Source: Guyparkeria sp. SCN-R1 (GTDB lineage Bacteria > Pseudomonadota > Gammaproteobacteria > Halothiobacillales > Halothiobacillaceae). From it: a DNA stretch of 64,000 bases. Location: the NCBI RefSeq assembly GCF_003932495.1, contig NZ_QZMT01000013.1, forward strand, positions 1 to 64,000. The letters are read 5' to 3'. The position numbers and the translations under genes are program-made. Positions 57,417 through 60,260 of this stretch are shown piece after piece (the first letter of the stretch is position 1; the number at the start of each line of letters is the position of its first letter). Below the pieces are notes generated by a model. That model was not told the origin of the DNA, ran no database searches, and saw only the letters and a program-made list of their open reading frames with translations.

Positions 57417-58679
57417 TCAGCGGCTCGCGGCGGCGATCGACTCGGCGAGCAACTCCACCGGCTGCTTGACGACCAGCTTCGCGCCCGCCGCGAGGTGGGT
57501 CGCGCAGCCGACATTGGCGCTGACCACCAGATCGGGCGCCAGCTGTTTGATGGATGCGAGTTTCGGCTCGCGCAGGCGCTCGGCCTGTTCCGGGTAGAGC
57601 AACACGTGCATCCCGGCCGCCCCGCAGCAACGCGCGTTGCCGTCGATCTCCAGTAATTCGAGTCCCGGGATGGCTTCGAGCAGCCGTCGACTGACATCGG
57701 GTTGCGCCAGGTGATTGCGCTGGCTGCATGGGGTGTGCAGCGCGACGCGGTGGTCGAGTCTCGCCAGGCGGGGCCATTCTGCCGGCTCGCGCTCGAGCAA
57801 CCACTCGGTGATCTCGCGGATCGTCAGGCCGTGCGAGGCCGGCAAGGCGGCAAGTTCGGCCGAGCAGGCCGTGCCCACCACGATTATCTCGTCGACGCCG
57901 GCCGCCTTGAATGCGGCCGCGTTGCGTTCGCGCTGGCGAGCCGCCGCTTCGGGCTCTCCGCTGTGGGCATGCATGGCGCCGCAGCAGATCTGATCCCTCG
58001 GTATGACGGGTTGGTAGCCGAACGCGGTGATGGCCGCTCGGGCGGCGGCCACGGCGGGGGCGTTCATGGCCGCGCCGGTGCAGCCCATGAATAGGCCCAC
58101 CCGCCCACGGTATGACTTCGGCTCCTGGGTCGATGCCTGCGGTGGTGTGGCGTGGCTCAGCTGGCGGGGCAGGGCGCGACCCATCGGCCCGGCCAGTCGA
58201 CGTGCCATGCCACCCAGTCCCAGTCGTTGCATGCCGCGATACACCTGCCAGGCCATGCCGAGGCGTCGACGCCTTGTCAGCAGTTGGTCGCGCAGCAGGC
58301 GCCAGAACCACGCCTCGCCTCGCGGGTGCGTGGCGGGTGCCGACTCCTGGGCCAGGCGTGTTCGGCCGTTGTCGATCAGCCGTCCGTAAGCGACCCCCGA
58401 GGGGCAGACGGTCTCGCAGGCGCGGCAGGTCAGGCAGGTGTCCAGGTGCCGGCTGACATCGGCATCCGGTGGCAGCTCGCCCTGGCTGATGCCGAGCAAC
58501 AGGCTGATCCGCCCGCGAGGGCCATCGGCCTCGTTGTGGGTCAGGGAGAAGGTGGGGCAGTGCGGCACGCAGATCCCGCACATCACGCAGTCGAGCGCAT
58601 CCGACTGGATGGCCTGGTCGAGCGTGGTCGATGGGGGCTGGCCCGCGGAGGCGGTCGGGTTGGGCGAGTTCATGTTCAA
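57417..58679 (-). CDS. (Fe-S)-binding protein, GlcF-like (glycolate oxidase iron-sulfur subunit type)
   Basis: A 420-residue electron-transfer protein. Two ferredoxin-type clusters use C31, C34, C37, C41 and C82, C85, C88, C92. Two CCG domains follow, with ICCGAMHAHSGEPE and RCCGAAGMHVLLYPEQAERL. This layout fits GlcF, the Fe-S partner of the FAD subunits GlcD/GlcE that oxidise glycolate. No glcD or glcE is adjacent, so the flavoprotein partner must lie elsewhere and the substrate is uncertain. Confidence 0.85.
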   Translation of the reverse strand: MNMNSPNPTASAGQPPSTTLDQAIQSDALDCVMCGICVPHCPTFSLTHNEADGPRGRISLLLGISQGELPPDADVSRHLDTCLTCRACETVCPSGVAYGRLIDNGRTRLAQESAPATHPRGEAWFWRLLRDQLLTRRRRLGMAWQVYRGMQRLGLGGMARRLAGPMGRALPRQLSHATPPQASTQEPKSYRGRVGLFMGCTGAAMNAPAVAAARAAITAFGYQPVIPRDQICCGAMHAHSGEPEAAARQRERNAAAFKAAGVDEIIVVGTACSAELAALPASHGLTIREITEWLLEREPAEWPRLARLDHRVALHTPCSQRNHLAQPDVSRRLLEAIPGLELLEIDGNARCCGAAGMHVLLYPEQAERLREPKLASIKQLAPDLVVSANVGCATHLAAGAKLVVKQPVELLAESIAAASR

Positions 58680-58779
58680 AGAGTGCAGTGGCCCGGTGGG
58701 GTGGTCAAGGCGCCGTGCCCGTTGTGGCGAGCCGTTGGGCGACGCGCCGACGGGGCGGGAAGAAAATGCAGGGCGGGGG

Positions 58780-58807
58780 TTGACGACCCGTGGAGTATTA
58801 GTATATC
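58780..58807 (+). promoter_or_regulatory. Promoter of a short transcript upstream of rplM
   Basis: TTGACG (58780-58785), a 16-base spacer and TATATC (58802-58807), or ATATCT with 17 bases. The predicted start is near 58814, about 40 bases before a strong terminator hairpin. Confidence 0.55.
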
Positions 58808-58813
58808 TTGATA

Positions 58814-58877
58814 CCGTGAATTGCTTATCCTCCTTTGGTGGTTCTTGTTGTTGCCGGCTCCTGCCGGCATTTTTTTT
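58814..58877 (+). ncRNA. Candidate small RNA or attenuated leader upstream of rplM
   Basis: A promoter (58780-58807) and an intrinsic terminator (58852-58877) bound a unit of about 64 bases. TCCTCCTTT (58828-58836) is a perfect complement of an extended Shine-Dalgarno, AAAGGAGGA. The 3' end is a 7 bp stem plus eight U, suited to Hfq. An alternative is a leader peptide: a GTG at 58816 opens a frame reading [18 protein letters not shown], with three consecutive Cys codons just before the terminator stem. Expression is not shown. Confidence 0.45.
58852..58877 (+). terminator. Intrinsic terminator of the short transcript
   Basis: TGCCGGC (58852-58858) and GCCGGCA (58863-58869) form a perfect stem with loop TCCT, followed by eight T residues (58870-58877). 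No annotated gene ends just before it on this strand. Confidence 0.85.
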
Positions 58878-58914
58878 GCCTGGAATATCTCCAAGGAAGA
58901 ATTGAATGCTTTTG

Positions 58915-58943
58915 GGCGCGGAAAGTCCTTCGCTTTCCGCGCC
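58915..58943 (+). other. Perfect 11 bp hairpin before a second promoter-like -10
   Basis: GGCGCGGAAAG (58915-58925) and CTTTCCGCGCC (58933-58943) pair exactly around TCCTTCG. A good -10, TATACT (58953-58958), follows with a poor -35. The hairpin lies between the short-transcript terminator and the rplM promoter and has no T run. Confidence 0.6.
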
Positions 58944-58997
58944 GATGCGTTTTATACTCCGCGGTTCTCCACGTTCGGGCCGGTTGAAAAATCGGCC

Positions 58998-59026
58998 TTG
59001 CGGGGTGCGATGCCTTCGGGTAGACT
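58998..59026 (+). promoter_or_regulatory. Promoter of rplM-rpsI
   Basis: TTGCGG (58998-59003), a 17-base spacer, TAGACT (59021-59026), then TCGCGCCCTC. Layout, -10 and discriminator are almost the same as at 67-95 before tRNA-Trp/secE. Confidence 0.78.
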
Positions 59027-59078
59027 TCGCGCCCTCTTGAAATCAATGTATCGCTTCTGGTTTGGGAGCTGTCGATCC

Positions 59079-59507
59079 ATGAAAACCTATTCCGCCAAGC
59101 CGGCCGAGGTCAAACGCGACTGGTACGTCATCGATGCATCCGGCAAAACGCTGGGTCGCCTGGCTACCGAGGTCGCCCGCCGCCTGCGTGGCAAGCACAA
59201 GGCCGAGTTCACCCCGCACGTCGATACCGGTGACTACATCGTTATCGTCAATGCGAAGGACATCAAAGTCACTGGCAAGAAGGCCAGCGACAAGATGTAT
59301 CACTTCCATACCGGGTTCATCGGCAACATGAAGCACTTCACCTTCGAGAAGCTGATGGAGCGTTCCCCGGAGCGCGTCATCGAGCTGGCCGTCAAGGGGA
59401 TGCTGCCGAAGAATGCGCTCGGTCGCCAGATGTACACCAAGCTCAAGGTCTACGCCAACGCCGAGCACAATCATCAGGCGCAACAGCCCCAGCCGCTCGA
59501 GATCTAA
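59079..59507 (+). CDS. rplM: 50S ribosomal protein L13
   Basis: A 142-residue early assembly protein, same length as in E. coli. It starts [20 protein letters not shown], which fixes the ATG at 59079; an open frame continuing upstream is not family-like. [20 protein letters not shown] is present. It forms an operon with rpsI, 12 bases later. Confidence 0.98.
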
Positions 59508-59519
59508 GAGAGACTACTC

Positions 59520-59912
59520 ATGGCAATGACACAGAATTACGGAACCGGTCGTCGCAAGAGATCCTCTGCACGGGTCTTCCTGCGTCCGGGTACCGGCAAC
59601 ATCACCATCAACGGCAAGAGCATCGAAGACTTCTTCGGTCGTGAAACTGCCCAGATGGTCGTTCGCCAGCCGCTGGAACTGCTGGAACTGGGCGACAAGT
59701 TCGACGTCGTCGCGACCGTTGCTGGCGGTGGCCCGAGCGGCCAGGCCGGTGCCGTTCGTCACGGTCTGACCCGTGCGCTGATGGACTATGACGAAGCACA
59801 CCGTCCGAAGCTGCGTGAAGCCGGCTTCGTGACCCGTGACGCTCGTCAGGTCGAGCGTAAGAAGGTCGGCCTGCGCAAGGCACGTCGTTCGGTACAGTTC
59901 TCCAAGCGCTGA
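59520..59912 (+). CDS. rpsI: 30S ribosomal protein S9
   Basis: A 130-residue head protein whose C-terminal tail SKR touches P-site tRNA. It starts [20 protein letters not shown]; another ATG two codons on (59526) is possible, but 59520 gives the usual length. [20 protein letters not shown] is diagnostic. It is closed by the terminator at 59948. Confidence 0.98.
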
Positions 59913-59947
59913 TCCGACGCCTTGCCGGCCTCGAGCCGGCCACCTCG

Positions 59948-59974
59948 AAAGCCCCGCCCTCGTGCGGGGCTTTT
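59948..59974 (+). terminator. Rho-independent terminator of rplM-rpsI
   Basis: AAAGCCCCGC (59948-59957) and GCGGGGCTTT (59964-59973) form a perfect stem with loop CCTCGT, followed by T. Confidence 0.85.
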
Positions 59975-60260
59975 GCTTTGTCTGCTATTTGCTCTCACGG
60001 GGCTTGCCGGGGAGGGGAGGCATCGTCGCGGTCAGCGCGTAGGCTGCCGGCAGAAGATAAGCCTTGGGGTCAGAAAGGGGAGGGGTGCCGAGTGCCGATC
60101 GGGATTCGGCGATCCCGGGGGAAAGGCGCTAGCCCGGTGGTGCGTTGCCCGGTTATCCCTGGCCCCAAAGGTGGTTCTCGTTGGGGGCCGGCAAGCCGCC
60201 CGAGTGAAGGCGATGCCTTTGGCCCGGCGCGGTTTGCGTGCGCCGCGCGGGGCGGACGCC
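59975..60260. other. Spacer without recognised features
   Basis: GC-rich sequence between the rpsI terminator and the 3' end of the minus-strand gene at 60261. Open frames here are short and resemble nothing known. No tRNA, strong promoter or minus-strand terminator was seen. Confidence 0.5.

Follow-up and report, generated by a model that had tools for sequence, protein, structure and literature searches.

Upstream of rplM, in the 64,000-nt stretch of the Guyparkeria sp. SCN-R1 genome that we analysed (the window), a short intergenic segment raises the question of what its RNA is for: does it act on other transcripts as a small RNA (sRNA), does it sense cysteine through a leader peptide, or does it serve the ribosomal protein genes that follow it? 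The first-pass annotation of this DNA had described a promoter-like motif, a U8 terminator and, at 58828-58836, the anti-Shine-Dalgarno (anti-SD) stretch TCCTCCTTT; all three are present, the last in exactly that place (Table 1). It had also called the divergent gene an Fe-S protein, which agrees with the Fer4 and CCG domains of the 57417-58679 product and with its top NCBIfam model, GlcF, at 204 bits (the cut-off of 333 is not reached). On the other side, rplM is followed by rpsI at 59520-59912. The source genome (G000; 2.4 Mb) belongs to a family of which four genera were sampled. Among PDB entries, its RuBisCO large-chain fragment comes closest to 1svd, the Halothiobacillus neapolitanus enzyme, and to related entries, as is likely for a Halothiobacillaceae-like sulphur oxidiser. 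We consider it quite probable that 58816-58877 encodes, as a gene in its own right, a short trans-acting RNA that blocks ribosome binding sites with the aid of Hfq.

Table 1. Features from the glcF-like gene to rplM, with positions in the window
Feature	Position	Strand	Remarks
glcF-like Fe-S protein gene (4Fe-4S and CCG domains)	57417-58679	-	divergent from the sRNA
-35-like TTGACG of the sRNA promoter	58780-58785	+	TTGnCn or TTGCAA there in relatives
TATTAG promoter element	58796-58801	+	kept in the window's family and about a quarter of distant members (TTGACA-N10..13-TATTAG)
-10 region (TATATC or TATCTT)	58802-58809	+	putative
sRNA gene	58816-58877	+	predicted, 62 nt; conservation, models R1 and R2, fold
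Hairpin 1	58818-58844	+	stem GAAUUGCU/GGUGGUUC (58818-58825 with 58837-58844), loop 58826-58836; thermodynamic prediction
Anti-SD TCCTCCTTT in the hairpin 1 loop	58828-58836	+	corresponds to site 2 of RF02278/NmsR-like RNAs
Intrinsic terminator / hairpin 2, U8 tail	58852-58877	+	compensatory changes in the stem
-10-like TATACT	58953-58958	+	predicted from sequence; candidate separate rplM promoter 3' of the terminator
rplM (ribosomal protein L13)	59079-59507	+	

Conservation, promoter and fold

In a DNA search of the family, 58795-58880 stood out as conserved far beyond its flanks in all genomes of the window's genus (g1) and in nearly all of a sister genus (g4). Among ten g1 species, identity reaches 98.9% over 58816-58851 and 94.1% over the terminator, but drops to 41% in the DNA 5' of the -35 and to 38% beyond the terminator. 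This near-complete conservation of the RNA, with about 40% in the flanks, strongly supports the small-RNA reading offered in the first-pass annotation and marks 58816-58877 as a predicted sRNA gene under strong constraint. Model R1 matches 11 of 11 g1 genomes and nine of ten g4 genomes at E<=1e-14, and two weak matches in a third genus (g3; E 0.001-0.004), both with CTTCCTTTGGTGGTTT, lie 120-130 nt 5' of rplM. A second place in the source genome (L058, G000:C10:87888-87922) and in two congeners (L174, L175) shares GGTTCTTGTTGTTGCCGGC and a T run with the 3' half of the sRNA, and is matched weakly by R1 (E 2e-4 in G001, 1e-3 in G009). It lies near a gene that we take, from its protein, to be queA, and is possibly a relic or a second sRNA with the same tail.

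TTGACG at 58780-58785 and TATCTT at 58804-58809, with an 18-nt spacer, form the only sigma-70-like site in 58000-60000, where 0.4 would be expected. The predicted 5' end of the sRNA was placed from this promoter and the 3' end from the T run. Farther afield, TTGACA-N8..14-(T/A)ATTAG stands 5' of 17 of the 61 distant copies, compared with 0.5% in shuffles. The presence of a TATTAG-type motif in both the window's family and these distant copies is a further argument for common descent and indicates a probable conserved promoter or regulator site of some kind. The palindrome TATTAG-N6-CTAATA was considered as a regulator site and rejected, as exact copies elsewhere in the sister genomes are few, their spacers are unrelated and no regulon was seen.

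The RNA is predicted to fold into two hairpins. The first carries UAUCCUCCUUU in its loop, the second is the terminator (TGCCGGC and GCCGGCA arms around TCCT, then T8), and the fold of the 62-nt RNA beats all 200 dinucleotide shuffles (z -4.2). The arms of hairpin 1 are invariant in the window's family except in genome G003, and none of its pairs covaries within that family. Across an alignment of 64 sequences, six of the seven pairs in the terminator stem show compensatory changes and hairpin 1 is 94% paired, counts that lean towards the covariance model's own structure.

Cysteine codons, and the relation to rplM

The first-pass annotation had set beside the small RNA a second reading, in which the same segment attenuates transcription through a cysteine-sensing leader peptide, and had proposed that conservation of the SD complement be compared with that of the cysteine codons. 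The complement fared unevenly: TCCTCC is kept throughout g1 but shortened to TTTCC, TTTC or TTC in g4, with the loop reduced to UUCU in one g4 species, and it is kept less well than GGUGGUUCU. The cysteine codons are not kept. The window does hold a GTG frame with TGT TGT TGC before the terminator stem (ORF 58438-58905, read from the GTG at 58816), which is the one likeness to cysteine-responsive leader peptide attenuators and is confined to the window sequence. However, neither G003 nor any g4 member has the GTG, in most g4 members an in-frame TGA directly follows the first cysteine codon (GTT AAT TGC TGA), and G008, a g1 genome, reads TAT TTT TTG in place of the three codons. Moreover, no Shine-Dalgarno sequence precedes the GTG and no cysteine gene lies downstream. 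A translatable ORF with conserved regulatory cysteine codons is therefore missing, and this second reading, which conservation refutes, retains a negligible probability.

A different cis-acting role would arise if transcription from 58810 continued, in certain conditions, past the terminator and so supplied rplM-rpsI. In keeping with such a leader, the terminator stands just 5' of rplM, on the same strand, in most lineages, and the order around the f1 copies is glcF (divergent), sRNA, rplM. Yet in five genomes (G003, G017, G022, G024, G025) the sRNA still adjoins glcF while rplM lies elsewhere, and three loci from distant genomes (L176, L181, L203) keep glcF with no rplM nearby. That the sRNA stays by glcF when rplM moves indicates that the RNA does not depend on rplM in cis. 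Tandem sRNA copies away from rplM in other genomes speak against a leader as well, as do candidate rplM promoters between the terminator and the ATG; for the one at 58953-58958 we found no good -35. Altogether, a role as rplM leader or attenuator is unlikely, and we give it very little weight. As to what has replaced rplM, at L049 in G022 the glcF-rplM linkage is broken and the sRNA now lies upstream of a gene that we take to encode ribosomal protein L28; in G003 the neighbour is presumably an acetyl-CoA synthetase gene. In the window, a further 12-bp terminator-like hairpin with no proper T run follows the sRNA at 58915-58943 (GGCGCGGAAAG-TCCTTCGCTTTCCGCGCC), ahead of the presumed rplM -10 region.

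Spread in Gammaproteobacteria and proposed function

We built covariance model R2 from 20 sequences, namely the window RNA and elements like it that stand 5' of rplM in distant Gammaproteobacteria. At E<=0.01, where about four chance matches are expected, it matches 144 of 370 class genomes in 75 families, 54 of them at E<=1e-6; in 2 Mb of the congener G005, the true copy scores E 5e-11 and the next match E 0.7. The match lies on the same strand as rplM and 90-691 nt upstream of it (median 150) in 60 of the 73 genomes where the position of rplM is known. Distant members have in common the core CTCCTCCATCCTCCTTTGGTGGTTT and the terminator hairpin, and CTCCTCCATCCTCCTTTGGTGGTTT-type units followed by a terminator occur upstream of rplM in Thiotrichaceae, Granulosicoccaceae, a Lucinoma symbiont and others. 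Two sequences, L073 (CAACTGCTCCATCCTCCTTTGGTGG) and the G003 copy (CAACTGCTCATCCTCCTTTGGTGA), bridge the window form and the distant form. A large part of the Gammaproteobacteria carries kin of the sRNA at this spot, apparently without annotation. They have one recurrent place, and Rfam 15 does not call them at its cut-off in the loci tested. The exact core was not found in viral contigs, and the literature search yielded nothing relevant on either the core string or an sRNA next to rplM.

The near-invariant core of the distant members holds two anti-SD stretches. Distant member L178 is predicted to fold into a 5' hairpin, a free CUCCUCC, a hairpin with a CUCC loop and a terminator, and of these four elements the window RNA retains only the last two. 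Where distant gamma members have CUCCUCC (site 1), the window's family reads TGAATTGCT. Of the widespread sRNA that Gammaproteobacteria carry between glcF and rplM, the window RNA is a shortened, Halothiobacillaceae-like form; its family has lost the first anti-SD site and so reveals which part is dispensable. Some genomes carry tandem copies elsewhere than at rplM; G375, for instance, has several side by side. In one family (f33; L206, L208, L209) the full-length core sRNA forms arrays of two to four copies, and at L223 (G086) a core copy lies about 100-160 nt from a 6S RNA gene, on the same strand.

How might such an RNA act? It would be transcribed from its own sigma-70-like promoter (TTGACG/TATATC) and end at its own terminator, yielding a stable 62-nt RNA whose U-rich 3' end, the U8 tail, would be bound by Hfq. 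The anti-SD loop of hairpin 1 would then pair with purine-rich ribosome binding sites, the conserved GGUGGUUCUUGUUG extending the pairing, and thereby block translation of a set of mRNAs. Features of Hfq-dependent sRNAs found here are a predicted promoter of its own, a Rho-independent terminator with a long U tail and, in the congener G005, an hfq gene whose product is 79.7% identical to E. coli Hfq over 69 aa. The target search that the first-pass annotation had suggested gave nothing above control: at a cut-off of -20 kcal/mol, the complete genome of G005 holds 31 strong sites, compared with 33.7 for a control in which the TCCTCCTTT core was kept and the flanks were shuffled. Since the real flanks do no better than shuffled ones, we name no target. 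Searching the family with pattern CACCAAAGGA gave no recurrent target sites either; the copy near queA lies antisense inside the gene.

This null result, together with the degradation of the anti-SD loop in g4 while AAUUGCU and CUUUGGUGGUUCU are kept, favours a reading in which the main partner of the sRNA is a protein, or in which it serves as a sponge that titrates, say, another RNA, and its SD complementarity is a by-product of a role other than binding ribosome binding sites. Indeed, because the first anti-SD is absent and the loop is UUCU in one species, what selection maintains family-wide is not strict complementarity to the SD. Against this interpretation, which we regard as improbable, stand the two anti-SD stretches in the near-invariant distant core, arranged as in NmsR. 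It is tempting to speculate, as an idea that we put at slightly short of even, that an ancient anti-SD sRNA, unannotated in Gammaproteobacteria, has kept its place between a glycolate-oxidase-type gene and the L13-S9 ribosomal operon in dozens of families, that it may link ribosome supply to carbon metabolism or growth rate, and that it was pared to one pairing loop in the window's lineage. With position and core this stable, it becomes directly testable whether many environmental Gammaproteobacteria, sulphur oxidisers and symbionts among them, share a global translational regulator.

Resemblance to RF02278 and NmsR

The first-pass annotation knew of no family that matched, and Rfam searches of the window, at gathering and low thresholds, returned only chance-level sRNA matches that share the terminator; the window RNA is not reported against RF02278 at E<=10. 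It is through the distant members that the sRNA proves related, in architecture and core sequence, to RF02278 and NmsR. RF02278 is the best Rfam family for most of them, with 16 of the 20 top loci at 33-48.5 bits; the gamma relatives score 26.8-48.5 bits, every member tested staying below the gathering score of 50. L072 aligns with the model end to end (34.7 bits, E 8e-6 in 161 nt).

RF02278, the Betaproteobacteria toxic small RNA, covers ncS03, ncS05, ncS27 and ncS62 of Burkholderia cenocepacia and Bordetella S17. The B. cenocepacia double-hairpin RNAs have CU-rich stretches predicted to cover ribosome binding sites, and over-expression of ncS27 attenuates growth (PMC5688073); Bordetella S17, which RF02278 RNAs resemble, is an Hfq-dependent repressor of many genes (PMC11722255). 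Like these, the window RNA is a short two-hairpin RNA whose second hairpin is a terminator and whose first presents a CU-rich, anti-RBS stretch in its loop, and the distant gamma members add the 5' CUCCUCC site and the end-to-end alignment. Unlike them, the gamma RNAs lie between glcF and rplM in Gammaproteobacteria, and the window's family has a different stem and no CUCCUCC 5' of hairpin 1.

NmsR of Neisseria (RcoF; RF02877, NmsRb) has three stem-loops, with one anti-SD stretch between SL1 and SL2 and another in the SL2 loop, both complementary to target SDs and mutated to test their action (PMC5362039). L178 has all four parts of this layout (SL1, anti-SD, SL2 with an anti-SD loop, terminator), and distant gamma members generally share it, although the sequence match is weak (26-30 bits against a cut-off of 52). 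The window RNA does not have the full layout: it lacks SL1 and the first anti-SD, and it is single, whereas the NmsRs are a tandem pair. The betaproteobacterial toxic, or double-hairpin, sRNAs and NmsR are linked to a much wider set of RNAs, present in about 40% of the sampled class genomes. In architecture the gamma sRNAs appear to resemble both RF02278 and NmsR, a likeness that may reflect either common ancestry or convergence.
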